DNA from: Limosilactobacillus fermentum
Lineage (GTDB): Bacteria; Bacillota; Bacilli; Lactobacillales; Lactobacillaceae
Assembly (NCBI RefSeq): GCF_013394085.1
Contig: NZ_CP040910.1
Location: 1,399,418 to 1,463,417 of the forward strand
Direction: 5' to 3'
DNA: 64,000 nucleotides
Positions 2,173 through 28,522 of the stretch are shown piece after piece; position 1 is the first letter of the stretch, and every line of letters begins with the position of its first letter. Below the pieces are notes generated by a model. It was given only the letters and a program-made list of their open reading frames with translations, was not told the origin of the DNA and did no database searches. The translations under genes and the position numbers were made by a program.

Positions 2173-2212
2173 AAAAGAGGCTGGGAAAATCAAAGTTTCC
2201 CCAGCCTCTTTT
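2173..2212 (-). terminator. Terminator attached to repeat copy A
   Basis: AAAAGAGGCTGGGGAAA pairs with TTTCCCAGCCTCTTTT. It follows the right end of repeat copy A directly on the minus strand and ends the yheA transcript. The AGAGGCTGGG arm recurs beside copies D1 and G. Confidence 0.8.
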
Positions 2213-2220
2213 CAAATCTT

Positions 2221-2299
2221 GAATGTTACACAGCTAACGTGCTCCCAACCACAAACCTAGTGCCTAAGTACGGTTTGTCGAGAGGGTTGGTCACACTTC
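2221..2299 (-). repeat. Structured intergenic repeat, copy A (internally deleted)
   Basis: On the minus strand it starts GGAAGTGTGACC and ends GTAACATTC. It keeps the outer stem CCAACC/GGTTGG and the middle stem ACAAACC/GGTTTGT with the 6-nt bulge CTCTCG, but has lost the apical arm. The middle stem differs from other copies (ACAGGCC/GGCCTGT) on both sides, so pairing is kept. It sits between the yheA stop and its terminator. Confidence 0.85.
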
Positions 2300-2306
2300 C
2301 CCGTAA

Positions 2307-2669
2307 CTAGCCCTCTTGCGGGCCGAATTGCTTGTAAAGTTCTTGTAGCGGGCCAGTGATGATCTGATTTAATTGTTGGATCATTTGGTCAACTTGTTGT
2401 TCCTTGGCCATCAAGGCTTGGATGACGTCCTTGCTGGTAACGTCTTTGGCCAGGGCTTGGATTTCCTTGATTTCATCTTCGGAAATTTCTTGGCCCTGCA
2501 TTTGCTTTTGTTGGGCCGCCGCTTGCTTAGCTTGGAACTTAACGAACAGGTCCGTTGCTTCCTTGTCGGCCTTTAAGTCATCAAAGGCTTCCTTTAAGCC
2601 GATGAATTCCTGCGTTTGCCGCATTTGGCGTTCCAGTTCGTTTGCCGTATCGTAAATGTTTACAACCAT
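2307..2669 (-). CDS. YlbF/YmcA-family protein (UPF0342, YheA-like)
   Basis: A 120-residue, all-helical cytoplasmic protein. It starts MVVNIYDTANELERQMRQ and has Gln/Lys-rich amphipathic helices (around residues 45-100) and a C-terminal QLNQIITGPLQELYK helix. This pattern is typical of the YheA/UPF0342 branch of the YlbF/YmcA family, whose founding Bacillus members modulate RNase Y. For YheA itself no biochemical role is established. The start ATG at 2669 follows AGGAGGACAC. It lies between the PBP gene and yhaM on the same strand. Confidence 0.85.
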   Translation of the reverse strand: MVVNIYDTANELERQMRQTQEFIGLKEAFDDLKADKEATDLFVKFQAKQAAAQQKQMQGQEISEDEIKEIQALAKDVTSKDVIQALMAKEQQVDQMIQQLNQIITGPLQELYKQFGPQEG

Positions 2670-2727
2670 TTGAATGTGTCCTCCTAATTGACATTGCTTT
2701 CATTGTATCATGACCGGCCTGGTCTAG

Positions 2728-4848
2728 CTAGAAGAGCGAGCGGATGTTGCTCCAGGCGTTTTGGACCTGTTGGTTAACGTTATTGGCAAAGTCGGAAACC
2801 CGGTTCCACAGGTTGGAGCCAGACGAGTTCGATGATGATGCGGACTTGGCCGCCTCTTGCGCCTTGGTTTGGGCGTCTTGGACGGTGAACTTAGTCCCGG
2901 CGGTGTTAGACAAGATCCCACTCATTTCGGTCTTAAAGAGGCCGTAGATGTCGTTATTTTCGACGTCGTAAAGCTGGTTAGTCTTAGTGGTAGTGTCATA
3001 ACCTTCCCAGGTCACCACCACCACGTCGGGTGTGTAGCCGATGATCCACTTATCGCGGTCGTTGTCATCATTCGTCAAACCGGAATTGGTCGTCCCGGTC
3101 TTTCCGGCGATCGTGTAACCACTCGGGGCGGCGTTCTTCCCGGTCCCGTGCTTGAAGACCCCGATCATCATCGAGGTCATCGTGTTGGCCACCTTCTTAG
3201 AGATGATCCGCTTGGTCGTCAACTTGTTCTTGCGCTTAACGACCTTGCCCGAGGCGTCCACGGTCTTGGTGATGTAGTGGGTCGTCGGCAGCTCCCCACC
3301 CGAGGCAAAGACGGCGTAGGCCCGGGCCATTTGTTGTGGCGAAACCCCGTCGGTTAAGCCCCCGAGCGCCAGCGCCAGGTTTTTATCGCTCTTCACTACC
3401 GGTAGGCCAAACTTTTGGGCCATCTTGTAGCCGGTGTCGACCCCGATCTTGTTTAAGAGCCAGACCGCCGGAGCGTTGAGACTTTCGTACAGGGCCTTAT
3501 ACATCGGTACCGATCCCGAGTAGGTGTTGTCGTAGTTTTTCGGGGTGTACTTGTTAGTCCCGTAGGATTGGAGCTTGTCTTGCAGGGTCGAATCGTAGAA
3601 GTAGCCGTGCAAGAGGGCCGGGGTGTAGACGGCAATCGGCTTGATCGTCGACCCCGGTTGGCGCCGCATTTGGGTGGCCCGGTTGTAGCCCCGGAAGACG
3701 TGGGTCCCACGCCCGCCGACCACGGCCGTCACGCCCCCGGTCTTAGGGTTAACGGCAATCGAAGCTGACTGAACGATCGTCCCGTCAGCCTTGGTGGACG
3801 GGAAGTTGTTGTCATTATCGTAGGTATCTTGCATCGCTTCTTGCTGCCCCTGATCGAGGGTGGTGTAAATCTTGTAGCCGTTATTCATAACCTCTTTTTC
3901 GGTCAGGCCGTAATCCTTGATCGCCTCCGAAATTACGGCGTCAAAGTAGTACGGGTACTTGTAGGTGTTGGAATTACTGTACCCATCTTCAACGGTTAAC
4001 GGCACCTTCTTGTAGGCATTGGCCTGTGCCTGGGTCAGCTTATTATTTTCCACCATCAGGTCCAAGACGAGGTTGCGCCGTTCCTTAGCTAATTTCGGGT
4101 GGTCAACCGGGTCGTAAATCCCCGGCGACGTCAGCATCCCCGCCAAGGTCGCGGCTTGTGGCACCGTCAACTGGCTAGCGTTAACGTTAAAGTAACGCTT
4201 AGCGGCGTCTTGCACTCCCCAAACCCCGTGACCGAAGTAGGCGTTATTCAAGTACATGGTCAAGATATCTTTTTTGGAGTACTGATTTTCCACTTCGATC
4301 GAGATGAAGATTTCCTCGGCCTTACGCGAGAAGGTTTGCTGCTGGGTTAAAAAGGCGTTCTTGACCAGTTGCTGGGTCAAAGTTGATCCCCCACCGGAAA
4401 TGTAGTCCCGGCCCAAGACCTTATTTTTGACCAGCAGGTAGGCCGCCCGGGCCAGTCCCTTAACCGAGAAACCGTGTTCGTGGTAGAAGTTGCGGTCCTC
4501 CGTCGATAAAACGGCGTTGGAAACGTTACTCGAAATCTCATTTAAGGAAACGTAGGTCCCCTTTTGTGAATACAGGCTCCCGGCGCTCTTACCGTTATGG
4601 TCGTAAACCAGGGTTGGCTGCTCCAAGCGGGCCTTTAAGTCCTTAACGTTAGACGTTTTAGCCACAAAGGTCAGGTAGGCGCTCATCACCAAAAAGAGGC
4701 TCAAGACAATTATGATCAACCAGCGGGTCAGCTGGAAACGGTGCCACTGGTGGCGAACTAGTTGCCAAACCCGGTGACCGACTTGCTTGACCCCTTCTTT
4801 CAACCGCTCCTTAAATGGTAAGCGTGGCGGTCTTTGACGTTCCATCAT
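2728..4848 (-). CDS. Class A penicillin-binding protein (PBP1A family)
   Basis: Bifunctional cell-wall synthase that polymerises glycan strands (GT51) and cross-links peptides. It has a basic cytoplasmic N-terminus and one membrane helix at about residues 42-65. The transglycosylase domain carries TEDRNFYHEHGF and GGSTLTQQLVKNAFL. The transpeptidase domain carries the SxxK serine in GSTIKPIAVY, the SxN motif SLNAP and the KTG motif GKTGTTN. A Ser/Asn-rich tail of about 60 residues follows. The 706-residue length is normal. Two tandem ATGs (4848, 4845) follow GGAGGATAA; the second has the better spacing. Confidence 0.93.
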   Translation of the reverse strand: MMERQRPPRLPFKERLKEGVKQVGHRVWQLVRHQWHRFQLTRWLIIIVLSLFLVMSAYLTFVAKTSNVKDLKARLEQPTLVYDHNGKSAGSLYSQKGTYVSLNEISSNVSNAVLSTEDRNFYHEHGFSVKGLARAAYLLVKNKVLGRDYISGGGSTLTQQLVKNAFLTQQQTFSRKAEEIFISIEVENQYSKKDILTMYLNNAYFGHGVWGVQDAAKRYFNVNASQLTVPQAATLAGMLTSPGIYDPVDHPKLAKERRNLVLDLMVENNKLTQAQANAYKKVPLTVEDGYSNSNTYKYPYYFDAVISEAIKDYGLTEKEVMNNGYKIYTTLDQGQQEAMQDTYDNDNNFPSTKADGTIVQSASIAVNPKTGGVTAVVGGRGTHVFRGYNRATQMRRQPGSTIKPIAVYTPALLHGYFYDSTLQDKLQSYGTNKYTPKNYDNTYSGSVPMYKALYESLNAPAVWLLNKIGVDTGYKMAQKFGLPVVKSDKNLALALGGLTDGVSPQQMARAYAVFASGGELPTTHYITKTVDASGKVVKRKNKLTTKRIISKKVANTMTSMMIGVFKHGTGKNAAPSGYTIAGKTGTTNSGLTNDDNDRDKWIIGYTPDVVVVTWEGYDTTTKTNQLYDVENNDIYGLFKTEMSGILSNTAGTKFTVQDAQTKAQEAAKSASSSNSSGSNLWNRVSDFANNVNQQVQNAWSNIRSLF

Positions 4849-4940
4849 TTATCCTCCGAACGAAAACATGATGGGACTATTTTAACATTGCAAGCAAGCC
4901 GGCGCCAAACCTAGCCCCGATCTTAACCATTTGTCAAGGA
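4849..4940. other. Leader side of the PBP gene before the repeat array
   Basis: This stretch precedes the PBP start and contains its Shine-Dalgarno sequence. I see no clear promoter or structured RNA in it. The rest of the 613-bp gap up to argS is filled by repeat units B1-B4 and the argS terminator. Confidence 0.4.
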
Positions 4941-5060
4941 GGAAGTGCGACCCAATCTATCAAACAGGCCGTGGGCTAAGGATAGGGTACAGGTTAGCGC
5001 GCCAGCGGTGTTCTGTGGCCAGACTTAGCCACTAGTCCTGTGATTGGGGAGCACGTTATT
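4941..5060 (+). repeat. Structured intergenic repeat, unit B1
   Basis: A 120-bp unit starting GGAAGTGCGACC and ending GCACGTTATT. CCCAATC (4951-4957) pairs with GATTGGG (5042-5048), and ACAGG (4964-4968) pairs with CCTGT (5037-5041). The 6-nt bulge TATCAA lies on the 5' side only. CTAAG and CTTAG form a third stem. Its interior is nearly identical to unit D3, about 20 kb away on the other strand. Confidence 0.9.
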
Positions 5061-5179
5061 GGAAGTGCGACCCAATCTATCAAACAGGCCGTGGGCTAAG
5101 CTAGAGGAAGATTGGTGCGGTACGCACCGTTCTTCGCCCGTACTTAGGCACTAGACCTGTGGTCATTTTCCACGTTATC
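5061..5179 (+). repeat. Structured intergenic repeat, unit B2
   Basis: A tandem neighbour of B1 with the same left 40 bp but a different interior. The interior forms an apical hairpin, GGTGCG-GTA-CGCACC. The middle stem ACAGG/CCTGT is kept. The outer stem is lost on the 3' side (GGTCATT instead of GATTGGG). Confidence 0.85.
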
Positions 5180-5345
5180 GGAAGTGCAACCCAATCTCCT
5201 CGACAAACCGTATGTAAGCTCGAATACCGAATAAGGTACACGACAAATGTTTAGATTTGCGCAATACAGTGAGTGCGACCCAACCTATCAAGCAGGCCGT
5301 CTAGCGGTCATTGCGCCAAATTTTAGATTTGTCCTGTCACCAAAA
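5180..5345 (+). repeat. Degenerate repeat units B3 and B4
   Basis: Two further left ends appear at about 5180 (GGAAGTGCAACCCAATC) and 5271 (GAGTGCGACCCAACC). They are followed by diverged sequence that shares an ATTTTAGATTTG-like segment. The full fold is not kept. They look like decayed copies in the same tandem array. Confidence 0.6.
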
Positions 5346-5414
5346 CGGGAGTGACGCCCGAATGGTTTGGCAGATATCCCTCAGCAATGAAGTTGGCAAC
5401 CTTTTCCCCGTATC

Positions 5415-5445
5415 AAAAAAGCCCCACCGCAGAGCGCGACGGGGC
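5415..5445 (-). terminator. argS terminator
   Basis: On the minus strand GCCCCGTCGC pairs with GCGGTGGGGC (two G-U pairs) and is followed by TTTTTT, just after the argS stop codon. Confidence 0.85.
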
Positions 5446-5461
5446 AACGTATTAAACTAAA

Positions 5462-7150
5462 TTACATTTCGTCTGGTGCCTTAACGCCGAGGAGGGCTAA
5501 GGCGGACTTGAGGACGTCGGAAACGGCTTGGACGAGGGCTAAGCGGGAGAGCTTTTGGTCGTCTTCTTCCAGAATCCGGGTGTGGGCGTAGTATTGGTTG
5601 AAGGACTTAGCCAAGGACAGGGCGTACTTCCCAATCAAGGACGGGTCGTATTCGTTAGCGGCCCGGACGATCGTTTCTTGGTATTGACCAATCTTCTTGG
5701 CTACTTCCCAGGCTTCTTGACCATCGACGGTCAACGTAGCGCCTTCAAAGGATGGGCGGCCGGCCTTACGGAGGATCGATTCGGCCCGGGCGTGGGCGTA
5801 TTGAACGTATGGACCGGTTTCCCCTTCGAACTTAACCACTTCTTCTAACTTAAAGTCCACCGAGTTGGTCCGTTCGTTCTTCAGGTCGTGGAAGATTACG
5901 GCGCCAACCCCCACTTCTTCGGCCACTTGGTCGGCGTTGGCCAGGGTCGGGTTCTTTTCTTCGATTTGTTGGCGGGCCAACTTGATCGAGTCGTTTAAGA
6001 CGTCTTCCAATTGGATAATGTTCCCCTTCCGGGTAGACATCTTCTTCCCGTTTAAGCTCATCAAACCAAACGGAATGTGGTGAATTTGGTCTGACCAGGT
6101 GAAGCCCATTTCGGACAGGACCGCCTTTAATTGGGCAAAGTGGTTGCTTTGTTCGGCCCCCACCACGTACAGGGATTGGGCGTGGTGGTACATCCGCTTA
6201 CGGAATAAAGCGGCCGCCAAGTCCCGGGTTAGGTACAGGGTGGAGCCGTCGCTCTTGCGGATCATGGCCGGGTTTAAGTCGTACTTTTCCAGGTCGATGA
6301 TTTCGGCCCCACGGGATTCCTTAAGTAACTGCTTGTCTTCTAAGAGGGTTACCACTTCATCCATCTTATCGTTGTAGAAGGCTTCCCCGTTAAAGGAGTC
6401 GAAATCAATGTCCAAGAGGTTGTAGATCTTCATAAACCGTTGCAAGGACACTTCCCGGAACCACTTCCAGAGCCGCTGGGCTTCCGGATCGCCCTGTTCG
6501 AGCTTAGCAAACCATTCCCGGCCCAGGTCATCGTATTCGGGGTGTTCATCGGCTTCGGTGTTGATCTTAACGTAGTACTTTTGCAGGGTGTTGATCGGGT
6601 CCTTTTGCACCTCTGCTTCGTCCCCCCACATTTCGTAGGCGGCCATCAACTTCCCAAACTGGGTCCCCCAGTCACCAAGGTGGTTGATCCGTACCGGTAC
6701 GTAGTTGACCTTAGCCAAGATGTTGGCAATGGCGTTCCCGATCACGGTTGAACGCAGGTGCCCCATCCCCATTGGCTTGGCGATGTTTGGCGAGGACAGG
6801 TCAATGGTCACGTGCCCCTGGTGACCCAGGTCGGTGCTCCCGTAGTTAGCTGGGTCCGCCAAGACGGCGGCCAAGATTTCTCCCCCGACGCTAGCCTTGT
6901 CCAAGAAGAAGTTAATGTACGGGCCGGCAACAACCACCTTTTCAAAGCCACTTTGGTCGATTTGTTCAGCCAGTTCGCTAGCAATCATTTGCGGCGCCTT
7001 GTGGAGCTCCTTGGCTAAAAAGAAGGTTGGAAAGGCGTAATCACCGTTCTTAGCATCCTTTGGGCGTTCCAACTTTGCTTCAAGATCTTCCACACTGAGG
7101 TTTGGCAGCACCTTTTGCAGTGCAGACGCAACTTGTTGACGTTCGTTCAT
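5462..7150 (-). CDS. argS: Arginyl-tRNA synthetase
   Basis: Class I aminoacyl-tRNA synthetase charging tRNA-Arg. The N-terminal domain is of ArgRS type. The HIGH-type motif appears as [14 protein letters not shown] after SSPNIAKP, and the KMSKS-type loop as [20 protein letters not shown] anticodon-binding domain forms the C-terminus and includes [11 protein letters not shown]. The length of 562 residues is typical. The start ATG (7150) is preceded by AGGAGGAATT. It is a single-gene unit behind a T-box leader, so expression should rise when tRNA-Arg is uncharged. Confidence 0.96.
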
Positions 7151-7159
7151 CCTAAATTC

Positions 7160-7385
7160 CTCCTAAAAAGTAAAAAAGCCCCTAATAAGCCCATGCTTAC
7201 TAGAGACGAGATTTCCCGCGGTACCACTCTAATTGAATGTATCATTCCACTCAAACTTCGATTTAACTGCTGGTCCCTGACACGCCTTCGTAACGGCAAC
7301 GCCCCTCCTTTCACCAACGAGGGGTCGCTAATTACGTTCGCCGTTACTACTACTCCAGGGACCGGAATGCCTTTATTATACCAAG
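7160..7385 (-). promoter_or_regulatory. T-box leader of argS
   Basis: The minus strand carries the conserved T-box AGAGTGGTACCGCGGGAAA (around 7210-7235). It is followed by a terminator-type hairpin ending in GGGGCTTTTTT before the argS RBS. Upstream is a long stem with arms GTCCCTG/CAGGGAC. The likely specifier triplet in its internal loop is CGT followed by G, an Arg codon that fits the gene. The specifier was read by eye. Confidence 0.88.
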
Positions 7386-7435
7386 CTCCGGCAGAATAAC
7401 AAGCAAAAAAAATCACCGCCGAAGCGATGATGAGA

Positions 7436-7506
7436 AGCGGGTAACGAGAATCGAACTCGCGACGCAACCTTGGGAAGGTTGAGTTTTACCACTGAACTAT
7501 ACCCGC
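7436..7506 (-). tRNA. tRNA-Gly (CCC)
   Basis: A 71-nt cloverleaf on the minus strand. The acceptor arms are GCGGGTA/TACCCGC with discriminator T. The anticodon loop TTCCCAA gives CCC, and the T-arm contains GTTCGATTC. It is not part of the rRNA-linked tRNA cluster. Confidence 0.93.
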
Positions 7507-7568
7507 ATAATTTAATGAGTAATTAACTTACTCATTTATAATACCACATTAAATTGATTTGTCACTAC

Positions 7569-7928
7569 TTATTTGGAACTTTTTTCGTTTTTTTCGGAAC
7601 TAGCCGACTCTTTAGTCGTCTTTGTCCGCCGCCGGCGGGTGTTCTTACCCGATTTAGCAGCCTTTGCCGCCGCTTCTTCTTCTTCCTTAGCGGCCGCTTC
7701 TAAGTCCTCTTTGGTCCGTGGCACTTCCTTTAAGATCTTGGCTTCGCCCTTCCGAACCACGGCCCGGCCGTTTAATTCGTTGATCCCACTTTGATCTGCC
7801 GGATCGTATTCGGTAATGGCAATCATTACTGAGTTATCGTAAACCTTTTCGACTTCCCCGGAGAAATCGTGTTCTAAGGGACCAAACTTCTTGGCCGCTA
7901 CTTTATCACCAATCTTGTAATGGGTCAT
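7569..7928 (-). CDS. KOW-like small basic-tail protein (DUF2187-type)
   Basis: A 119-residue protein. The first 65 residues (MTHYKIGDKVAAKKFG... to EAKIL) look like a small beta-barrel of the KOW/DUF2187 kind. The rest is an alternating Glu/Ala/Lys region and a basic tail with TRRRRTKTT, suggesting nucleic-acid or ribosome contact. The longer ORF starts at 7961, but ATG at 7928 has GAGGTGGAAGGC directly before it and begins at the conserved domain. The domain call is from memory of the family; the function is unknown. Confidence 0.75.
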   Translation of the reverse strand: MTHYKIGDKVAAKKFGPLEHDFSGEVEKVYDNSVMIAITEYDPADQSGINELNGRAVVRKGEAKILKEVPRTKEDLEAAAKEEEEAAAKAAKSGKNTRRRRTKTTKESASSEKNEKSSK

Positions 7929-8070
7929 GCCTTCCACCTCACTGATCAACTTTTTTCGCAATAAAGGCTATTTTACACATTTTAAGATTTTTTTCAAGTC
8001 CCACGCCCCGTTCGCCGGTCAAATGCGGCAATGCTACAATGGTGGTAAACCGATTTCAAGGGGAATTATC

Positions 8071-8409
8071 ATGGATCCACTTTACTTTGCCGTTAACCTT
8101 CTGGGGTTTCTCGGCCTCATCTTTACCATTTACCGGGGCCTGCGCTCCCACCAAGAAAAACGGGTCACGACCTGGTTGGTCATCACCCGTTTAATCATCC
8201 TGTTATTAGTCGGCCTAACGATCGTCGACCAGCTCCACTCCCTGCCGGCGTTTAATCCTTTATCGATCATCCGGGGCGTGTACCTTATTTTTTTGTTTGT
8301 GGTTAGCGAAGTCACCTTCGGCCGCAAGCAGGAAAGCTTTGGCAGTCCCCACCAAATGATGCGCTTGGAATTGTTAACGCTGGCTGGCATCCTAGTCTTG
8401 CCTTGGTAA
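8071..8409 (+). CDS. Small four-helix membrane protein, possibly DUF1516/YisL-like
   Basis: A 112-residue protein starting MDPLYFAVNLLGF, with four hydrophobic segments at roughly 4-22, 37-56, 68-84 and 95-111. A conserved-looking RKQE loop precedes the last helix. The ATG at 8071 has AAGGGGAA eight bases upstream; the longer frame has no RBS. Size and topology resemble DUF1516 (YisL) proteins, but residue similarity is weak to the eye. Its stop codon touches the folP stop (8409/8410) with no terminator in between. Confidence 0.7.
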   Translation: MDPLYFAVNLLGFLGLIFTIYRGLRSHQEKRVTTWLVITRLIILLLVGLTIVDQLHSLPAFNPLSIIRGVYLIFLFVVSEVTFGRKQESFGSPHQMMRLELLTLAGILVLPW

Positions 8410-9543: not shown

Positions 9544-10120
9544 TTCTCTTCTCCTTTAGTTGTTCCATCAGGTCCCGCGCCGCCCGGGAACGGTGCGCCT
9601 CTTTTAACCACTCCGCCGTTGGCAATAGCGCCAGCGGCTTTGTTTGTCCCGCCGGAATTAATAAGCGGTCAAAGCCCCGGTCATCGTCGCCCTGGGGAGT
9701 GGCCGCTAAGGTGCCGGTTAAGCAACCGTGGCCCACCGCCACTTCCTGGCCGTCACGAAAGAGACTGACCCAGGTTTCCATCGTAAATTCCCGGTCACGA
9801 CCGGCCACCATCGCGAGGACGGTTTGTAGCCGGTCGCCGCCGTGTTCGTCCAGTTCGCGAGCGGTCCGGATCCCCAATTGACCCGGGCAAGCTGCTAAAG
9901 TCAGTCCCGAGTCGTCGGCTAAGACGTACTCACCCGGCATGACTTGGCTAACAAAGCGGGCCTTTTGCCGGGCGTTGTCTAGGTAGGACGCGACCCCCTC
10001 GGCAGGCATTGGCTGAGCTAGCTTGGGCGCCGGGGCGGCATCAATACCACTGCTGGAAAGGATCATGGCCAGCTCGGCAACCTTGCCCTGGTTGTGGCTA
10101 GCGATCCAAACTTTCATCAT
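9527..10120 (-). CDS. Non-canonical purine NTP pyrophosphatase (RdgB/HAM1 family) in the folate operon
   Basis: HAM1-family nucleotide pyrophosphohydrolase. Visible motifs are ASHNQGKVAEL near the N-terminus, LADDSGLTLAACPGQLG, and GDDDRGFDRLLIP in place of the usual GxxGFGYDP. Length 197. In L. plantarum the same position (between folC2 and folP) holds xtp3. The family removes ITP/XTP. In this operon it may instead remove pyrophosphate from dihydroneopterin triphosphate, an otherwise missing step; that is inference. Two ATGs overlap the RBS region GAGGGGCTCA. It overlaps folC by 23 bp. Confidence 0.85.
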   Translation of the reverse strand: MMKVWIASHNQGKVAELAMILSSSGIDAAPAPKLAQPMPAEGVASYLDNARQKARFVSQVMPGEYVLADDSGLTLAACPGQLGIRTARELDEHGGDRLQTVLAMVAGRDREFTMETWVSLFRDGQEVAVGHGCLTGTLAATPQGDDDRGFDRLLIPAGQTKPLALLPTAEWLKEAHRSRAARDLMEQLKEKRIEDFN

Positions 10121-12908: not shown

Positions 12909-12967
12909 TGGTCAATAACCCCCAAGGTAGGCCTGCGGTTATCGACTACGTTTTCTGTCTAACATTT
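12909..12967 (+). repeat. Structured intergenic repeat, copy G (truncated, refolded)
   Basis: It contains the right end GTAGGCCTGCGGTTATCGACTACG and the tail TTTTCTGTCTAACATTTG found in copy E. The usual left half is missing. Instead GTCAATAACC (12911-12920) pairs with GGTTATCGAC in the right arm (9 of 10), so a shorter hairpin is formed. The tail runs into the terminator at 12978. Confidence 0.75.
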
Positions 12968-12977
12968 GGGAATACAG

Positions 12978-13013
12978 TAAGAGGCTAGGAAAAACGCTTT
13001 TCCCAGCCCCTTC
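12978..13013. terminator. Terminator attached to repeat copy G
   Basis: AAGAGGCTAGGAAAA pairs with TTTTCCCAGCCCCTT. It ends the leftward... reading from the right side, and it lies directly downstream of the CPBP gene on the minus strand. The hairpin sequence is related to those beside copies A, D1 and E. Confidence 0.75.
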
Positions 13014-13023: not shown

Positions 13024-13707
13024 TTATCGTGCGTTGAGCAAGACCGCCATCGCCACGATGTTATTGAGCATGTGGAGGGCGATGACGTTGCTTAGGTGAC
13101 CGGTCTTGCGGTAAACAAAGGCAAAGACGGCCCCCATAAAGAAGTAAATCAAATACGAAACCGGCGTCGTGCTGGCGTGCTCCAGGGTAAAAACAACCCC
13201 GGATAACAAAATTGGCGGCCAAACCGCATCGTCTTTGAAAAACAGGTTCATTAAGACGCCCCGAAAGATCAGCTCCTCGGCCACCGGCGACAGTAAAATC
13301 CCGGAGCCGGCCACCAACATCATCATTAAAGACGAGCTTCCCATCAGGTTGGCGATCGTTTGGTTATTGGTCGTCTGGCTCTGGTGGTAGAGGGCCTGGT
13401 TTAAAATCGCCAACACGTCTTCGCCGGCAATCATCACCAGGTAGCCCCCGATTAACCAACCGAGCCGGCTACCCACCCCTTGGGGCCTTGGTGTCCACCG
13501 GCGGTACTTGTAAAACAGGTGGGTCGCCCAAACGATAATGGCGACAAAGACCACTAAGTCAACGACCAGCCACCTGGTTGCCACCGAGGGATGACTGTAC
13601 ATATTCTGCTTAACCAGTAGTTCAAAAATTGGTGGAATCTGAATCGAAACCGCCAGTAACACCATGATCAGGACCCGCTTGGGCAGGGCCGGCCTTGTCT
13701 CGTCCAT
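13024..13707 (-). CDS. CPBP-family intramembrane metalloprotease (CAAX/Abi type)
   Basis: A multi-pass membrane protein of 227 residues with about seven hydrophobic segments. The active-site motifs of the CPBP family are present: EELIFRGVLMNLFF (the EExxxR glutamates), a second motif with TLEHAS, and HMLNNIVA near the end. In other lactobacilli such proteins are linked to bacteriocin immunity or peptide processing; no bacteriocin gene is visible here, so the substrate is unknown. ATG at 13707 has AAAGGGGGG upstream. It lies 18 bp downstream of the LacI-type regulator gene, probably in one transcript. Confidence 0.9.
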   Translation of the reverse strand: MDETRPALPKRVLIMVLLAVSIQIPPIFELLVKQNMYSHPSVATRWLVVDLVVFVAIIVWATHLFYKYRRWTPRPQGVGSRLGWLIGGYLVMIAGEDVLAILNQALYHQSQTTNNQTIANLMGSSSLMMMLVAGSGILLSPVAEELIFRGVLMNLFFKDDAVWPPILLSGVVFTLEHASTTPVSYLIYFFMGAVFAFVYRKTGHLSNVIALHMLNNIVAMAVLLNAR

Positions 13708-16177: not shown

Positions 16178-16190
16178 ATTAGAAGTGCGG

Positions 16191-16230
16191 ACCAACCATT
16201 GGCAGGGCACGGCACCTTCCTAACATTCAA
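16191..16230 (+). repeat. Structured intergenic repeat, copy C (remnant)
   Basis: A 40-bp remnant that keeps both ends of the full element: AGAAGTGCGGACCAACC at the left and CCTAACATTCAAAGC at the right. The middle is collapsed. It is followed by a terminator hairpin at 16240, the same order as in larger copies. Confidence 0.65.
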
Positions 16231-16239
16231 AGCTTAAAC

Positions 16240-16279
16240 AAAAGTCGTTGAGCGATCTTTTTCGCCCAACGACTTTTTA
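16240..16279. terminator. Bidirectional terminator after the deoxynucleoside kinase
   Basis: AAAAGTCGTTGAGCG pairs with CGCCCAACGACTTTTT. It separates the rightward kinase gene from the leftward glucosaminidase gene. Confidence 0.85.
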
Positions 16280-18994: not shown

Positions 18995-18999
18995 AGCGC

Positions 19000-20980: not shown

Positions 20981-21087
20981 TTTTTTACCCTCCATCATGT
21001 TCACTTTGTTACAGATAATGATACCATAAAGCTAACGGGGACTAAAATGGTCCCCCTGAATTCGTTTTCAGCCGAGGGGGAATTTAA

Positions 21088-21963: not shown

Positions 21964-22334
21964 AAGAAGTTCACTTGACCAGCCCGCTGCCTACCGCACA
22001 ACAAGCCATTGAGGACCGCCTCCACCAACGGGGCTTTAAAATCTTTGCCGCCATCGACCAGGCTGCAGAAGCCCAAAACGTCGGCCTAACACTGAAACCC
22101 ACCGTCCTCTTGATTTTTGGTAACCCCAAGGTTGGTACCCTGTTGATGCAAGAAGACGACCAGGTCGCCTTTGAGTTACCAATTAAACTGTTACTGGTGG
22201 CAGAAGGCGACCACACCAAGGCCCTCTACCGTGACCCGCACGATTTTCCCAACGCCACTAAGCTAAGCGAGGCCGGTCAACAAATCATCGCCAACATGGC
22301 TAACCTTTACCAGTCCGTTTTAGCCGACCTATAG
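21957..22334 (+). CDS. DUF302 family protein
   Basis: A 125-residue soluble protein. The block LLIFGNPKVGTLLMQEDDQVAFELPIK is characteristic of DUF302, a small dimeric alpha/beta domain without a settled function. Its start lies inside the end of nnrD (7-bp overlap) with AGGGGGGGAATTAAG as RBS, so the two are co-translated. A strong terminator follows. Confidence 0.9.
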   Translation: MLKEVHLTSPLPTAQQAIEDRLHQRGFKIFAAIDQAAEAQNVGLTLKPTVLLIFGNPKVGTLLMQEDDQVAFELPIKLLLVAEGDHTKALYRDPHDFPNATKLSEAGQQIIANMANLYQSVLADL

Positions 22335-22335
22335 A

Positions 22336-22378
22336 AAAACTCCCGCCCAGCTCGAAACCCGAGCGGCGGGAGTTTTCT
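22336..22378. terminator. Bidirectional terminator
   Basis: AAAACTCCCGCC pairs with GGCGGGAGTTTT around an inner GCTCG/CGAGC stem. It serves the rightward DUF302 gene and the leftward flippase gene. Confidence 0.9.
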
Positions 22379-24025
22379 TTATTTAATATGGAAACGAGTT
22401 CGCAGGCCGGCGAAGCGATCACCGAGTAGGGTATCAACCAAGCGGTACTTAAGGGCCAGGTAGGCAAAGACCCCACCACCGATGACCACCCCGATTACCA
22501 GGGTGAAAAAGGCGTTGAAGCGCCCGTACGGACTAACCACCAGCCCCAACAAGAGCATCACCACTTTGACCACGGCAAACATGATCAAGGAAAAGGCGAG
22601 GATCTGGTTGGTTGGCTGGGCCATCTCGTTGAAGTGCAAGGTGAACTCCCGGTTAAAGGAGTGCAGGATGCAGTAGTTGATAAACAGCATCGCCACCGCC
22701 GTTGCCAGCAGGGGCCCCAGCCCCTTAAAGAGCCAGATGGCGGGAACTTGCACGATAAACTTAATGATGATCCCCACGAACAAGAAGCGCATCATCTTCT
22801 TGTTTTCGGAGATCCCCTGCATCATGGCCGCCCCAACCGTGTACATCCCGTACGGAATCGACATGAAGGCGGCAAACTGCAACACCGTGATGCCGGCCGC
22901 GTCGTAGCGGTAAAAGACCGTGTAAATCTGTTGGGCCACCGCCGCTAACCCTAGGGCCGCCGGTACCATGATGAAGTAAAAGAGCAGCAGGGCGTTTTCA
23001 ATTTGGCGCCGCATGTCTTGAATGTCATTTTTAGCCCGGGCCTCGGCCAACAGCGGGATCGCCGTGGCGGCCATGGCAGAAGCTAAGGAGATAATAATCA
23101 TGTACAGCTTGTTGGCGTTAAAGGAGAACAGGGCGTAAACCGTGTTGAGTTGGTAGGCGCTGTAGTTGCCAAACCACTTCATGATGTCAAAGAAGGTGTA
23201 CTGGTCAATCAATTGAAACAGGGTGATCCCGGATTCAATCACGATAAAGGGAATTGACTGGTAAATAATTTCACCAATTAACCGCCGGGTCGACACCCCC
23301 GTCGCCACTTCACCCTGGCTCACCAGGGCGTCCATCTCGCGCTTGCGCCGTAAAAAGGAGTAGGCTAACAAGACAATTGACCCCAACGCCCCGATGAAGG
23401 CGGCAAAGGTCGATTGGGTAACGGCTTTGACCCAGTTACCACTGCCCATCTCCATGATCACGAAGGTGGCCAGCAGCATGTAGATGACCCGCAACAGTTG
23501 TTCCACAAACTGCGACATGGCGGAAGGGGCCATCCAGTTGTACCCCTGCAAAAAGCCCCGGGTGATGCTCATGCCGGGGATCACGAGGACCGCCCAGGCT
23601 AGCGACTGAATGACCGGAATTACATCCGGGTCGCCCCCATCAAGCAGGGAGGCCCCGAAAAACATCAGGATCGAGCAGACCAGCCCCATCGCCACCGAGA
23701 CGTACATCCCCGAGTGGTACAAGCGGCGGGAGACCCCGTACTGGTTAATCCCGTTGTAGTGGGCCACCATCTTGGAAATCGCCGAGGGGATCCCGGCCGT
23801 TGCGACCATCAAAAAGAGGCTGTAGATGTTATACCCCTTAGCAAAGAGGGCGTTGGCCTGGTTGGAATAGGCCCCCATCCAAGTCACCCACGGGATGATG
23901 TAGATGGCACCCAAAATCCGGGAGAGGATCGAGCCCGCCGTCATCCATGCAGAACCGGAGATCATTTTGCGCCGCGAATCGTCAAGGGAGGCGGAAGAAG
24001 CCCCCGGTTGATTACGTGAATCCAT
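22379..24025 (-). CDS. murJ: MurJ/YtgP-type lipid II flippase (MVF/MOP superfamily)
   Basis: An integral membrane protein of 548 residues with about 14 hydrophobic segments. The N-terminal half (GSAWMTAGSILSRILGAIYI, TAGIPSAISKMVAHYN, PGMSITRGFLQGYNWMAPSA) reads very like Bacillus YtgP/MurJ. The likely job is moving lipid-linked peptidoglycan precursor across the membrane. Other members of the same superfamily move teichoic or exopolysaccharide units, so the substrate is an inference. ATG at 24025 follows AGGAAAGAAAG. Single gene, leftward. Confidence 0.82.
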   Translation of the reverse strand: MDSRNQPGASSASLDDSRRKMISGSAWMTAGSILSRILGAIYIIPWVTWMGAYSNQANALFAKGYNIYSLFLMVATAGIPSAISKMVAHYNGINQYGVSRRLYHSGMYVSVAMGLVCSILMFFGASLLDGGDPDVIPVIQSLAWAVLVIPGMSITRGFLQGYNWMAPSAMSQFVEQLLRVIYMLLATFVIMEMGSGNWVKAVTQSTFAAFIGALGSIVLLAYSFLRRKREMDALVSQGEVATGVSTRRLIGEIIYQSIPFIVIESGITLFQLIDQYTFFDIMKWFGNYSAYQLNTVYALFSFNANKLYMIIISLASAMAATAIPLLAEARAKNDIQDMRRQIENALLLFYFIMVPAALGLAAVAQQIYTVFYRYDAAGITVLQFAAFMSIPYGMYTVGAAMMQGISENKKMMRFLFVGIIIKFIVQVPAIWLFKGLGPLLATAVAMLFINYCILHSFNREFTLHFNEMAQPTNQILAFSLIMFAVVKVVMLLLGLVVSPYGRFNAFFTLVIGVVIGGGVFAYLALKYRLVDTLLGDRFAGLRTRFHIK

Positions 24026-24137
24026 ATCTTTCTTTCCTCGATTTTTAAAAAATTACAATTCCCCTTATTCTAGCCTTATTTAATGGGGGTCGCAAACCCT
24101 TTTAACTACCGCTCCTCTTTGTCCCCCACTTAGCTTA

Positions 24138-24401
24138 TCAATACTTATCTAAATCAGTGGTGATAAGTTCCACGTGAAAGTCCCGGTACTGCTCACTTAT
24201 TTCCCGTTGGTCGCTCGGCGCGGGGACCGGTTCGCGGTGGCTTTGTAGGTCGCTAATGATTATCGCTAGACCAATGGTTGCCCGCAGGCGGGCTCGGTCA
24301 AGGTCTTCGTCCACCACGTCGGCATCCGGTAGGTCCGGAAAGTGGATGGTATAGCCCTGCGATGTTTTTTTAATGACGGCTGGATAGGTTGTTAGTTCCA
24401 T
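24138..24401 (-). CDS. Orphan HicB-like protein
   Basis: An 87-residue protein. The N-terminus (MELTTYPAVIKKTSQGYTIHFPDLP) matches the partial RNase-H-like fold of HicB antitoxins, including the YTIHFPDLPD block followed by an acidic stretch. There is no HicA toxin gene beside it and no C-terminal DNA-binding domain. ATG 24401 begins the domain, but no Shine-Dalgarno is visible, and the start lies only 20 bp past the terminator of repeat D1. It may be an unlinked HicB-fold protein or a poorly expressed remnant. Confidence 0.7.
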   Translation of the reverse strand: MELTTYPAVIKKTSQGYTIHFPDLPDADVVDEDLDRARLRATIGLAIIISDLQSHREPVPAPSDQREISEQYRDFHVELITTDLDKY

Positions 24402-24420
24402 TTTAATTACCAAATGAAGA

Positions 24421-24457
24421 AAAGGTTGGAAAAACTACGAGTTTTCCCAGCCTCTTA
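24421..24457 (-). terminator. Terminator attached to repeat D1
   Basis: On the minus strand AAGAGGCTGGGAAAACT pairs imperfectly with AGTTTTTCCAACCTTT. It closes the leuS transcript after three repeat units. The same AGAGGCTGGG arm is found at copy A. Confidence 0.75.
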
Positions 24458-24467
24458 CCGTGTGTTC

Positions 24468-24600
24468 GAATGTTAGACAGATAACGTGCTCCCCAACCAC
24501 GGGCCTAGTGCCTAAGTACGGTCAAGGAACGATGCTTTCCGCATCAACCCTTGCCCTAGCTTAGTCAAACGGCCCGTCGAGGAGGTTGGGTCACACTCCC
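24468..24600 (-). repeat. Structured intergenic repeat, unit D1 (with full right tail)
   Basis: Minus-strand unit with outer stem CCCAACC/GGTTGGG and middle stem ACGGGCC/GGCCCGT around the bulge TCCTCG. The apical hairpin is GATGCG-GAAA-GCATC. The tail reads TATCTGTCTAACATTCG and leads into the terminator. The stems differ from B1 on both strands yet still pair. Confidence 0.88.
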
Positions 24601-24603
24601 AAA

Positions 24604-24724
24604 GATAACGTGCTCCCCAACCACAGGCCTAGTGCCTAAGTCCAGACACAGAACACCGCGTGCCGCGCTAACCTGCGTCTTACCCTTAGCCCACGGCCTG
24701 TTTGATAGGTTGGTCCGCACTTCC
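24604..24724 (-). repeat. Structured intergenic repeat, unit D2
   Basis: Minus-strand unit with outer stem CCAACC/GGTTGG, middle stem ACAGGCC/GGCCTGT and the bulge TATCAA. The interior is of the B1 type. It is in tandem between D3 and D1. Confidence 0.88.
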
Positions 24725-24725
24725 T

Positions 24726-24845
24726 AATAACGTACTCCCCAATCACAGGCCTAGTGCCTAAGTCTGGCCACAGAACACCGCTGGCGCGCTAACCTGTGTC
24801 CTATCCTTAGCCCACGGCCCGTTTAATAGATTGGGTCGCACTTCC
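24726..24845 (-). repeat. Structured intergenic repeat, unit D3
   Basis: Minus-strand unit whose first base is the last base of the leuS stop codon (TAG then GAAGTGCGACC). Outer stem CCCAATC/GATTGGG; middle stem ACGGGCC/GGCCTGT with one G-U pair. The interior is almost identical to B1. Confidence 0.88.
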
Positions 24846-27262
24846 TACTTCACGACGATGTTAACGATCCGGTTTGGAATCACGATCACCTTCTTGACGT
24901 CCTTGCCGTCCACAAAGGAGTGAACGTGCTCGTTAGCCAAGGCAGCGTCTTCAACGTCCTTGTTATCGGCGTCCTTAGCCATCTTAATCTTGGCCCGGAC
25001 CTTCCCGTTAACCTGGACGATCATTTCGACCTCATCTTCCACCAGGGCCTTTTCGTCATAGGTTGGCCACGGTTGGTAAGTGATGGTTTCTGATTCGTTG
25101 AATTGGCTCCACAGTTCTTCGGCCAGGTGCGGCATCAACGGCGCAATCATCTTAACAAAGCCCTCCATGTACTCTAACGGCAAGTTGTCAACCTTGTAAG
25201 CTTCGTTGACAAAGACCATCAGTTGGGAAATGGCGGTGTTAAAGTGCATCCGTTCAAAGTCGTCGGTCACCTTCTTAACGGTTTGGTTGTAGACCTTGGT
25301 CAACTTACCGTCGTTGTAGGTGGACACCCGGTCGCGTAGGTGGTTGTTGTCGTCCATCAAGAGGCGCCAAACCCGTTGCACCCACTTGTTGGACCCGTGC
25401 AGGCCCTTTTCATCCCACGGCACCGATTCTTCCAGCGGTCCCATGAACATTTCGTACAGGCGCAGGGTATCGGCCCCGTATTGGTCGACGATGTCATCCG
25501 GGTTCACCACGTTGCCCTTGGACTTGGACATCTTTTCGTGGTTGGAGCCCAGGATCATCCCCTGGTTAACCAACTTCATGAACGGTTCCTTAGTTGGTAC
25601 CAAGCCAAGGTCGTAGAGGACCTTGTGCCAGAAACGGGCGTACAAGAGGTGTAAGACGGCGTGTTCGGCTCCCCCCACGTAAAGGTCAACCGGTGACCAG
25701 TAGTCGAGGGCTTCTTTGGAAGCGAACTCCTTGTCGTTGGTCGGGTCGGTGTAACGCAGCCAGTACCAAGAAGAGCCGGCCCACTGTGGCATCGTGTTGG
25801 TTTCCCGCTTCCCGTGGCGGCCGTTTTCATCGTAGACGTTGACCCAGTCTTCGATGTTAGCTAACGGGCTTTCCCCGGTCCCGGACGGTTCAATGTTGTC
25901 GGTTTCCGGCAGGCGCAACGGCAACTCGTCTTCCGGTACTAATGAAGTCGTGCCGTCGTCCCAGTGGATAACCGGGATCGGTTCACCCCAGTAACGTTGG
26001 CGCGAGAAGATCCAGTCACGGAGCCGGTAGTTAACCTTCTTGCCCCCGCAGTCATGTTCTTCCAGCCATTCCACCATCTTGGCCTTGGCTTCCTTGATGT
26101 TTAAGCCGTCCAAGAAGCCGGAGTTGACGTGGGCACCATCTTCGGTGTAGGCCTCTTCCCCGTTGAATCCTTCGACCACCGGCGTGATTGGCAGGTTAAA
26201 CTTAGTGGCGAACTCAAAGTCCCGTTGATCACCGGATGGCACCGCCATGACCGCCCCGGTCCCGTAGGAGTTCAAGACGTAGTCGGCCGTCCAGATTGGT
26301 AACTGTTCGCCGTTAACCGGGTTGATGACGTAGGCACCGGTGAAGACCCCGGTCTTTTCCTTGCTTAACTCGGTCCGTTCCAGGTCGGAACGCCGGGACG
26401 CCTCTTCCTTGTAGGCGTCAACGGCGGCCTTTTGTTCCGGCGTCGTCAGTTGGTCAACCAGTTCGTTTTCCGGTGCCAGCACCACGTAGGAAGCACCAAA
26501 GAGGGTATCGGCCCGGGTGGTAAAGACCTCAATTTCGACCCCGTCGTGACCAACCACCTTAAACTTGACGCTGGCCCCCTCTGAACGGCCGATCCAGTTG
26601 CGTTGCATTTCCTTAACGCTTTCCGGCCAGTCAACCAGGTCCAAATCATCGATCAAACGGTCGGCGTAAGCGGTGATCTTTAAGACCCACTGACGCATCG
26701 GTACCCGGTAAACTGGGTAACCACCCCGTTCGGTCTTACCATCGACGACTTCTTCGTTGGCAACCACGGTCCCGCCCATGAAGTCGGGTGCCCAGTTAAC
26801 CATGATTTCATCTTCGTAGGCTAAACCCTTCTTGTAGAGCTGCTCAAAGATCCACTGGGTCCACTTGTAGTAGTTCGGATCGGTCGTGTTAACTTCGCGG
26901 TCCCAATCGTAGGAAAAACCAAGTGATTGAATTTGGTCGCGGAAGTGGTCAACGTTTTGGTTAGTGAAGTCAGCCGGGTTGTGACCGGTCTTTAAGGCGT
27001 ATTGTTCCGCCGGTAGCCCAAAGGCGTCCCAGCCCATCGGATGTAAGACGTTGAAGCCCTGCATCCGCTTGAGCCGTGACATCACGTCGGTGGCCGTGTA
27101 ACCTTCCGGGTGACCAACGTGTAACCCTTGACCAGACGGGTACGGGAACATGTCTAAGGCGTAGTACTTCTTTTGGTCCTTGTCCAAAGTGGCCTTAAAG
27201 GTCTTGTGTTGCTTCCAGTAGCGTTGCCATTTCTTTTCAATCGCTTTGTGATCGTATGCCAT
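24845..27262 (-). CDS. leuS: Leucyl-tRNA synthetase
   Basis: Class I synthetase charging tRNA-Leu and hydrolysing mischarged products. The HIGH motif lies in [20 protein letters not shown]. The CP1 editing domain (about residues 220-420) includes [14 protein letters not shown] and the DQRDFEFA block. The catalytic KMSKS loop is [14 protein letters not shown]. The C-terminus ends VNGKVRAKI...[17 protein letters not shown] at 27262 follows GGAGGATTTG, giving 805 residues. It is controlled by a T-box leader, and its stop codon abuts repeat unit D3. Confidence 0.97.
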
Positions 27263-27299
27263 GATCAAATCCTCCAATCAATTCGCGTGACTAAACCGG

Positions 27300-27550
27300 A
27301 AGGGACAAAAAAACGCCCCGTTGTGCTTAACACAAACGGGACGAATTTCTCCGCGGTACCACCCATCGTTCCACGTTGCCGTGGCCCTTAGCCCCTTAAC
27401 GCGGGAAACGAGGACGACTACTGGTTTCACCGCCCTTTAGCGGGGTGAGTTCACCCGGCTTGCCCTCCACATTTCCAGCCCCATGTGGTCTCTTTAAGGG
27501 TCGCCCCGGGTTACTTTTCCCCTTCCGGTCTGATATTATGGTTACCACTA
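27300..27550 (-). promoter_or_regulatory. T-box leader of leuS
   Basis: The minus strand carries the T-box GGGTGGTACCGCGGAGAAA (27340-27365). It is followed by the terminator hairpin CCCGTTTGTG/CACAACGGG with TTTTTTT. Upstream are long paired arms, including CCACATGGGG and the GGGTGAACTCACCC hairpin. A CTC triplet in GTCGTCCTCGTTTCCC is the likely Leu specifier. The specifier was read by eye. Confidence 0.88.
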
Positions 27551-27623
27551 TACCATAAATTTTGACACGTGGGCGCTCCTTTTAATTTCTTTGTTAAAAA
27601 TGCGCACCCTTCTGGAGGAACTT

Positions 27624-28331
27624 TTGAATAACCATTACAAGTCTTTATCGTTAACCATTGGCGCCAGCGCCCTGGTGATCTTTTTGCTCTGTGCGTGGCT
27701 GGTGGGAAGCCACGCACCAGCCCTCAACGCTAACGATGCGGCGCTCCGTTCTTTAGTTAACGCCCACCGCACTAACTGGGGGACCGCCTTTTTCACCCAC
27801 CTCACCCTAGCTTACAACTCCACCGGTACCACGATCATCGCCGGGTTCGTCACCCTGGTGGCTTTGCTCGGCTTTAGCTGGCGGGCCGGGCTCCAGGTCG
27901 CCTTAACGGTCGCCACCGGCTCTTGGCTTAACCACTACCTCAAGTCCCTTTTTCAGCGCCCGCGGCCAACTAACGACGTCTTGATGCACTACGGTGGCTG
28001 GTCCTTCCCCTCGGCCCACGCGGCCCTGAGCGCCCTGACGATGGGGTGCTTAGTCCTGTTAATCTTGCGGACCAAGTGGCCGACTAAGTACCGCCACCCC
28101 CTGGCAACGTTGGCGGTCGTCTTTGCGCTTTTGATCGGCTTTTCGCGCCTCTACGTTGGTGCCCACTTCTTGTCCGATGTCATCGGTGGTTGGGCGCTAG
28201 GGATTACCGTGGTCGCCTTTTTTGACGCCCTCTTTCACCGCTTCTTACCCTACCAGGTCCGCTCCGTTCAGCGGGCCAAGCGTCGCCGCCCGCGCCCACG
28301 GTCAAACCGGCCCCGGGCCCGGCGGTACTAA
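27624..28331 (+). CDS. PAP2-family phosphatase, membrane-bound
   Basis: Predicted lipid phosphatase (undecaprenyl-pyrophosphate or phosphatidic acid type) of 235 residues with about six membrane helices. The three PAP2 motifs are present: KSLFQRPRP, FPSAHAALSA and SRLYVGAHFLSDVIGG. The C-terminus is a very basic tail rich in Arg/Pro. TTG at 27624 is preferred because TGGAGGAAC is right upstream; ATG 27600 has no RBS. It is divergent from leuS and followed by repeat copy E. Confidence 0.88.
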   Translation: MNNHYKSLSLTIGASALVIFLLCAWLVGSHAPALNANDAALRSLVNAHRTNWGTAFFTHLTLAYNSTGTTIIAGFVTLVALLGFSWRAGLQVALTVATGSWLNHYLKSLFQRPRPTNDVLMHYGGWSFPSAHAALSALTMGCLVLLILRTKWPTKYRHPLATLAVVFALLIGFSRLYVGAHFLSDVIGGWALGITVVAFFDALFHRFLPYQVRSVQRAKRRRPRPRSNRPRARRY

Positions 28332-28339
28332 ATAAGGAG

Positions 28340-28470
28340 AATGGAAAATAACCTCCGAAGCAGGTCGTATGACTAAGCTAGGACGAACGGTTGGTGCGGA
28401 CCGCACCGTTCTTCGTCCGTACTTAGGCACTAGGCCTGCGGTTATTGACCACGTTTTCTGTCTAACATTC
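28340..28470 (+). repeat. Structured intergenic repeat, copy E
   Basis: The stems are AACC/GGTT and GCAGG/CCTGC around the bulge TCCGAA, then CTAAG/CTTAG and the apical hairpin GGTGCGG/CCGCACC. The tail is TTTTCTGTCTAACATTCG. The usual GGAAGTG start is altered (GGAGAATGGAAAAT). It follows the PAP2 stop codon and runs into the terminator at 28482. Confidence 0.85.
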
Positions 28471-28481
28471 GTGAATATAGT

Positions 28482-28522
28482 AAGGGGCCAGGAGAAAGCT
28501 GTGCTTTCCCCTGGCCCCTTTA
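28482..28522. terminator. Terminator attached to repeat copy E
   Basis: AAGGGGCCAGGAGAAAG pairs with CTTTCCCCTGGCCCCTT. It ends the PAP2 transcript and, from the other side, could end proBA. Confidence 0.88.

Follow-up and report, generated by a model that had tools for sequence, protein, structure and literature searches.

Small dispersed repeats of several kinds serve as points of comparison for the element described here. SPRITE of Streptococcus pneumoniae, in the account cited, consists of an 18-bp duplex and a U-rich tract, is present in 30 copies, has a fold like that of a Rho-independent terminator, occurs preferentially close to the 3′ ends of genes and in convergent intergenic gaps, and is regarded as parasitic, perhaps having been co-opted (PMC3049150). 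BOX elements of the same species are described as modular (boxA–boxB(n)–boxC), MITE-like and strongly folded if transcribed, and one of them has been suggested to act as a terminator (PMC3049150). Efa-1 of Enterococcus faecalis is described as a 163-nt element with 65 copies and two adjacent stem-loops (PMC2267715). RUP, ERIC, Correia and other bacterial MITEs are characterized as short and non-coding, with terminal inverted repeats and many copies (PMC10969869, PMC3733652), and REP/RAYT repeats as 20–40-nt palindromes tagged GTAG or CGTC (PMC3733652).

The repeat found in Limosilactobacillus fermentum is non-coding, short (a 119-nt body, or about 185 nt as a composite) and dispersed in at least 150 copies, and is best read as a MITE-like mobile 3′-end cassette, a variant of the BOX/SPRITE kind. 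Like SPRITE as described, it is a small dispersed repeat with a terminator-like fold near gene 3′ ends, between convergent genes; unlike SPRITE, which has one long stem and a U-rich tract, it has a terminator that ends a larger element of body, tail and terminator. With BOX it shares a modular composite structure, a tandemly repeated module, a strong fold and MITE-like character, and it is set apart from BOX by description, having an intrinsic terminator of its own, as which no BOX module is described in the account cited (PMC3049150). By its published description, Efa-1 resembles it in being intergenic, of similar length and built with two stem-loops. The features described for the RUP, ERIC and Correia MITEs (short and non-coding, with terminal inverted repeats and many copies) also recur here, the body ends pairing imperfectly in an outer stem. 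The 119-nt body separates the element from REP/RAYT palindromes as these are described. We take Efa-1 to be EFAR, which reportedly integrates at terminator-like stem-loops, and we know of no terminator at a fixed position in RUP, ERIC, Correia or other MITEs. Small mobile repeats have thus been described, but this composite of repeat and terminator seems not to have been: a literature search of openly licensed papers found no name or description of a matching element.

Architecture of the Composite and Its Copies in the Window

The window, that is, the whole 64-kb stretch of DNA analysed, covers positions 1399418–1463417 of a single-contig genome of 1,887,974 bases and contains seven full repeat copies of about 119 nt, plus several shortened ones and remnants. 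The composite is about 185 nt long and consists of a hairpin body of about 119 nt, a tail of about 25 nt and a palindromic terminator (AAGAGGCTGGGAGAAAAC..GTTTTCTCCCAGCCTCTT). Its order is stop codon, GAGAGTGGGAAATAACC..hairpin..GGTTATTTACCACGTTT, TCTGTCTAACATTCGTGAATACAGC and AAGAGGCTGGGAGAAAACACGGTTTTCTCCCAGCCTCTT; the left end of the unit is GAGAGTGG or GTGAGTGG, and the right end is the 3′ arm of the intrinsic terminator. Searches used a covariance model of the body built on the seven full window copies (R1), a covariance model of tail plus terminator built on 14 stretches including those of copies A, D1, E and G (R2), and a broader body model (R3). Genes were called with our own simple codon-usage caller. 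The copies in the window are as follows.

2175–2234, minus strand: tail and own terminator (AAGAGGCTGGG..CCCAGCCTCTT) of copy A, with an exact palindromic arm; R2 56.8 bits, in the R2 training set
2235–2300, minus strand: internally deleted body of copy A; R1 39.2 bits
4941–5058, plus strand: full body of copy B1; R1 119.3 bits, in the R1 training set
5061–5177, plus strand: full body of copy B2, in tandem with B1; R1 100.1 bits, in the R1 training set
5269–5300, plus strand: remnant of a further unit, left end only; end-HMM match with E 7.5e-7
12928–12953, plus strand: right end of the body of copy E, the rest being deleted; repeat family D8, shared with copy G
12954–13012, plus strand: tail and own terminator of copy E; R2 67.9 bits, in the R2 training set
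16182–16277, plus strand: remnant with a left end (E 0.008), then a tail-like stretch and a hairpin
24420–24481, minus strand: tail and own terminator of copy D1; R2 63.0 bits, in the R2 training set
24482–24600, minus strand: full body of copy D1; R1 130.5 bits, in the R1 training set
24606–24724, minus strand: full body of copy D2; R1 126.8 bits, in the R1 training set
24728–24845, minus strand: full body of copy D3; R1 123.1 bits, in the R1 training set
28337–28456, plus strand: full body of copy G, with AAATAACC/GGTTATT arms; R1 118.7 bits, in the R1 training set
28457–28520, plus strand: tail and own terminator of copy G (AAGGGGCCAGG arm); R2 80.0 bits, in the R2 training set
35703–35820, plus strand: full body of copy H; R1 125 bits, in the R1 training set
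35878–35907, plus strand: terminator behind copy H; alignment to the sister genome G016, 0 of 200 shuffles as good

The first-pass annotation had claimed that copies A, D1, E and G carry a tail followed by a terminator with related arms. All four composites are found, with a gap of about 10 nt between the tail CTAACATTCG and the terminator, and the related arms are present, with the arms given for the last two copies having been swapped (that of E is AAGAGGCTAGG and that of G is AAGGGGCCAGG). The observation of a repeat-borne terminator is thereby confirmed, and it extends further than was claimed.

Most copies in the window lie close to the ends of genes. The body of copy A is 7 nt past the stop codon of a YlbF/YmcA-family gene, that of G is 6 nt after a PAP2 gene (Pfam PAP2), that of H is 4 nt after a FUR-family gene (Pfam FUR), and D3 is at distance 0 from the leuS stop codon, D1 being the last of three tandem units behind leuS. 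The terminator of copy E lies, on the other strand, just past the stop codon of an Rce1-like gene (13024–13707, minus strand), and the remnant at 16182–16277, with a weak R2 match (30.5 bits over 16215–16277), is also just past a stop codon. Copy B1 is without its own terminator and is flanked by two minus-strand genes; the B array has two full units here versus three in strain DR9 (L395:4843–5199). The whole composite of copy G has 99.5% identity over 184 nt in L. fermentum DR9, where the neighbouring genes are alike. The terminator behind copy H is native, kept in the sister species and outside the repeat.

A second body type has CCCAACC/GGTTGGG arms. Among the copies of the 464-kb sample defined below, sorted by a rough pattern, 14 are of the first type, 47 of the CCCAACC/GGTTGGG type and five unclassified. 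An R2 tail and terminator is flush with 7 of the 14 and 7 of the 47, respectively, and wherever a further unit was counted behind a sampled copy (15 copies), that copy is of the CCCAACC/GGTTGGG type.

Genome-Wide Association of Body, Tail, and Terminator

In the whole genome R1 gives at least 150 matches (the best 150 of 560 candidates). A 464-kb sample, made up of the window and 20 evenly placed 20-kb stretches, contains 66 best-strand copies in 51 arrays, from which about 270 copies per genome are extrapolated. The short motifs of the tail and terminator are weak when taken alone: in the window, the 11-mer arm has 28 matches at up to two mismatches versus 20.95 expected, and the 10-mer tail falls below expectation (25 versus 45.7). 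Their combination, judged from model matches, is far beyond chance. The 142 R2 matches in the 1.888-Mb genome represent 90 distinct places, so that, with 14 training stretches, most of these places were not used in building the model. Among the best 60 places, a body directly adjoins the match at 39 and overlaps it or lies within 71 nt of it at 4 others, and 17 are without a body match, some of them with a body fragment recognizable by eye; in the 464-kb sample, 14 of the 22 places scoring at least 40 bits are flush with a body.

As had been proposed, the repeat comes with a terminator of its own: this is the common form among the genus copies seen, and in the host it applies to only 16 of the 51 arrays, counted by a tail and terminator within 130 nt (R2 E below 5e-4, 464-kb sample). 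In the host, terminator-less copies are therefore commoner than composites. Most arrays nevertheless have a neighbouring terminator candidate: 37 of the 50 with enough flank have a strong hairpin of any kind within 130 nt, the same count being 42 of 80 for the ends of repeat-free genes and 15 of 80 for mid-gene stretches. In 30 of these 37 the hairpin has at least four T near its end, and in 23 it is not an R2 hairpin, at least three of these 23 being native terminators that the sister species also has. A terminator scan with strict T-tract rules was replaced, since terminators like those of G and D1 escaped it.

The terminator arm is not equally common away from repeats. After 29 AAGAGGCTGGG-like sites inside called genes were dropped, 62 noncoding palindromic sites of this kind remain in the 464-kb sample. 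Of the 13 with zero or one mismatch, 8 lie within 60 nt of a body and 10 are next to a body or tail; for those with two or three mismatches the corresponding counts are 16 and 21 of 49. The near-exact arm thus belongs to the repeat, and its looser relatives are ordinary terminators.

As observations on partial copies, 11 left-end and 3 right-end matches lie outside full bodies in the 464-kb sample, two of the left ones being very weak, and some isolated left ends lead directly into a terminator (sites include L031:4232, L044:18470, and L048:13390). A second short motif (TTTAGATTTGCGCAA / CAAATCTAAACATTTGTCCTGTC) recurs next to several repeat copies (window 5230–5340; L049:7966–8017; L037 after 3832; L048 3′ of 4374–4489; L050 before 3348).

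Position Relative to Genes

The terminator-like fold lies close to gene 3′ ends. In the 464-kb sample, 34 of 51 arrays start within 15 nt of a stop codon on the same strand, a few overlapping the last bases of the upstream gene by up to 14 nt, and none of the 51 shows the mirror case of an array ending within 15 nt of an opposite-strand stop codon. Four arrays lie at sample edges; of the other 47, which have two called neighbours, 27 are between convergent genes, 2 between divergent genes and 18 between tandem genes, the last in sense (10) or antisense (8) to their neighbours. The background of gaps of at least 60 nt in the same sample comprises 45 convergent, 139 tandem and 51 divergent gaps.

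A replication-strand bias was considered: among the body matches listed, 91 versus 59 run against the leading direction when the terminus is taken as the midpoint. It was dropped because the position of the terminus is uncertain and a bias of this kind is not seen when the sampled arrays are sorted by context.

Fold and Covariation

To analyse the fold, 20 bodies were aligned, taken from 14 genomes; of the 39 pairs, 33 show a double compensatory change. Read on the gene-sense strand and excluding pairs that are most often G-U, G-U exceeds A-C by 44 versus 4 in this alignment and by 129 versus 31 in the host copies. Changes within pairs are correspondingly skewed (77 C-to-T versus 17 G-to-A, and 46 A-to-G versus 12 T-to-C), whereas unpaired columns change at nearly equal rates (C-to-T 14.6%, G-to-A 13.2%), so that a mutational strand bias cannot account for the G-U excess. 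The stem has two symmetric 3×3 internal loops, CTA opposite GTA and GTA opposite CTA, whose exact forms occur in 14 and 11 of the 20 sequences; information content is 1.68 bits per column in the inner loop, 1.40 in the outer loop and 1.08 in paired columns. The strong covariation indicates a single-strand fold on the gene-sense strand that has been kept by compensatory changes. Together with the loop pattern, it is consistent with selection, during movement, on the element as RNA or as single-stranded DNA; an excess of G-U is uninformative as to whether the hairpin is RNA or top-strand DNA.

Settled Copies in Strain and Ortholog Comparisons

Between the host and DR9, 15 shared units were compared. 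Differences amount to 27 per 1000 paired and 21 per 597 unpaired positions, versus 173 per 14153 in the flanks. Single changes in pairs comprise 5 between Watson-Crick and G-U and 7 between Watson-Crick and mismatch; there are also 3 other changes and 5 clean double ones, and 4 of the latter fall in D1, a copy whose sequence may have been replaced by that of another. Orthologs between other species (6 groups among 61 loci) show three pair-keeping and three pair-breaking changes. Settled copies thus diverge no slower than their flanks and show no sign of constraint, and selection on the fold therefore probably acted during spread, in spreading lineages.

No presence/absence difference was found between the two strains: all 24 element queries with syntenic flanks are present in DR9, which argues against recent movement there. 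The DR9 record CP033372.1 (759,694 bases) is labelled a plasmid, yet genes for ribosomal proteins, RNA polymerase and tRNA ligases, including leuS, are found on it, so that it looks like a mislabelled piece of chromosome.

Spread Across Species and Probable Mobility

Within Limosilactobacillus, 31 of 50 genomes, the host included, have R1 matches at E up to 1e-6, the matching genomes other than the host having 1 to 25 each among those listed (best 72 candidates or fewer per genome, strict filters). In the family, R1 finds matches in 10 of 251 genomes from three genera (best 14 candidates each), and in the order, R3 finds them in 7 of 295 genomes (best 12 candidates each). One of these seven, G470, lies outside the family and has four strong R3 copies. 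At two of its loci (L322, L327) related hairpins are arranged in tandem; they have AGAGTGCGAC..GAGCACGTTT ends and a GCCGTA/CTAGGC loop. One of the two arrays starts over the stop codon of a long frame, and neither locus has a meaningful R2 match. Plasmid records of Latilactobacillus, Lactiplantibacillus and others match part of the body with 80–83% identity over 93–99 nt in the rows listed.

The tail and terminator are flush with the body in 40 of 60 copies from 12 other Limosilactobacillus species (R2 E up to 0.1), these being high-scoring copies and not a random sample. In an earlier, overlapping set of 23 loci, taken from 13 genomes of the genus and two of other genera, an R2 match lies at or near the body in 14 loci, representing 9 of the 13 genus genomes. 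The claim that body and terminator form a portable unit at gene 3′ ends is borne out in this respect: in the sequences compared, body, tail and terminator turn up together, as a single unit, at loci that are unrelated, and do so in many Limosilactobacillus species.

The extent of the unit is indicated by 66 pairs of bodies, 17 of them within one genome, that share at least 97% identity and lie at unrelated loci. In 30 of these pairs the local alignment starts no more than 5 nt from the left end, and the longer left extensions look like A-rich chance extension. On the right, the alignment extends at least 62 nt beyond the body, to the end of the terminator or further, in 50 pairs and stops earlier in 16, for example after 20 nt in a pair from G041 that shares the body and not the terminator. 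At two loci of G034 (L358, L359), homology to full composites ends near the terminator loop, leaving half a hairpin.

The nearest relative by LeuS (G016; 94% identical) has no R1 match in 712 kb at E up to 1, nor in a whole-genome search; R2 picks out one clear site there in 373 kb. Synteny with G016 holds on both sides for 34 of 141 element queries, which represent 23 distinct loci, most of which are short intergenic regions that are empty of the repeat and have other terminators. The sister hairpin is recognizable in the host at 3 of 22 testable loci (H, L040:14009, and L045:15585), one of which also matches a loose pattern for a composite-like tail, and by eye at a further locus, L045:18520. 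At locus L170, a composite terminator stands at the place of the sister hairpin, with a T-run after both. Native terminators may have been lost at composite sites, although native hairpins are often unrecognizable at tail-less sites too. The retention of their arms in the composite was rejected, as it is suggested by L043 and not by most other loci. As for target-site duplications, the sites in G016 are too diverged, and there is no empty site between the host and DR9.

No autonomous left–right pair occurs in the 464-kb sample, and eight fetched reverse-transcriptase or Y1-transposase loci share only chance 11-mers with the element. Y1 transposase has 15 matches in the host. Retro-copying, suggested by a unit that ends at the transcript end, was set aside, as RVT_1 has no match in the host; reverse-transcriptase matches occur in G037 (22) and G033 (11), most of them in 473-aa frames.

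Origin and Significance of the Composite

We favour, with a probability of roughly 0.68, a MITE-like mobile composite whose unit ends with a terminator and which lies mostly behind stop codons. Such an element would settle between stop codons and transcript ends, where transcripts of the upstream gene would pass through the body and stop at the element's own terminator; this terminator would make insertion nearly harmless and would replace or back up the native one. In the host, the CCCAACC/GGTTGGG form, mostly without a terminator, would have been amplified, frequently as tandem units, until it accounted for most of the approximately 270 copies (by the rough classification), and native terminators would serve downstream of terminator-less copies. 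Points that weigh against this account are the minority of host arrays with a terminator of their own (16 of 51), the absence of an autonomous left–right pair from the 464-kb sample, the sharing of all 24 syntenic element queries with DR9, and the antisense orientation of 8 of the 18 arrays between tandem genes.

The neighbourhood of repeat and terminator could instead be fortuitous, with the repeat inserted upstream of ordinary native AAGAGGCTG-type terminators and forming no unit with them. This is true of many terminator-less copies (H, L040:14009, L045:15585, and, by eye, L045:18520), and the sister has a repeat-free AAGAGGCTG terminator at the L188 locus; for the composite class, however, it is already contradicted by the fixed spacing and the homology running from the tail through the terminator at 39 of 60 host places, and by the same tail and terminator lying flush in 40 of 60 copies of other species, which makes it highly improbable as an overall account. 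A purely selfish DNA, whose hairpin is a substrate as single-stranded DNA or for a transposase and whose RNA fold and terminator are incidental, is possible, if doubtful. Lineage-confined amplification, near-identical copies at unrelated loci and the 15 Y1 transposase matches all speak for it, and it gains from the strain comparison, in that settled copies free of constraint imply that family-wide pairing was kept in spreading lineages; the sense-strand bias relative to the upstream gene and the cross-species conservation of the attached terminator are left for it to explain.

The same strain comparison lowers two further readings. A host-beneficial 3′-end cassette, kept because its hairpin protects mRNA 3′ ends or is processed, would suit the sense-strand position after stop codons, the compensatory changes and G-U preference on that strand, and an inner loop conserved above paired columns (1.68 versus 1.08 bits per column). 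Against strong host benefit, shared copies are no more conserved than their flanks, the sister G016 is without the repeat, and ortholog groups are few (6 among 61 loci), with pair-keeping and pair-breaking changes equal at three each; we regard this reading as decidedly unlikely. Exonuclease protection, which had been put forward with reference to a nearby YhaM gene, is not favoured: the putative gene (1199–2155, minus strand) has an HD domain as its sole Pfam match, and its presence is no evidence for such a role. It is also unlikely that the element is a mobile gene-ending with its own transcript-end signal whose GUA/CUA-loop hairpin, as RNA or single-stranded DNA, is recognized by a protein dedicated to it and responsible also for positioning the element after stop codons, the related Lactobacillales bodies then representing an old plasmid-borne superfamily.

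If transcripts do end at the modules of the favoured mobile composite, a selfish repeat would have come to form the transcript ends of a considerable number of genes in a bacterium found in food and the gut; the scale is indicated by 27 arrays (some sharing a gap) against 45 convergent gaps of at least 60 nt in the sample. Occupied host sites and empty sister sites provide a natural experiment on the effects of an added 3′ hairpin and terminator on mRNA, and the copies offer many sequence-diverse terminator candidates for lactobacillus genetics.

Other Features of the Window

At E up to 1, no match to an Rfam covariance model overlaps the repeat anywhere in the window, and seven related loci give only tRNAs and sub-threshold matches. 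Elsewhere in the window, a T-box leader lies upstream of leuS (27334–27536, minus strand; 104.8 bits), and another match (7199–7377, minus strand; 63.8 bits, gathering score 93) lies upstream of the ORF at 5462–7150. A SAM-III riboswitch match at 32093–32184 (minus strand; 44.9 bits, just under the 45-bit gathering score) overlaps the start of the ORF at 30908–32122, whose DR9 counterpart is annotated as methionine adenosyltransferase. Imperfect tandem repeats of about 33 bp occupy 41117–41340 within the ORF at 40805–41752. Near the D array, a small ORF (24138–24413, minus strand) has a borderline HicB-like Pfam match (26.5 bits versus a cut-off of 27), and its DR9 counterpart is annotated as a HicB family protein.
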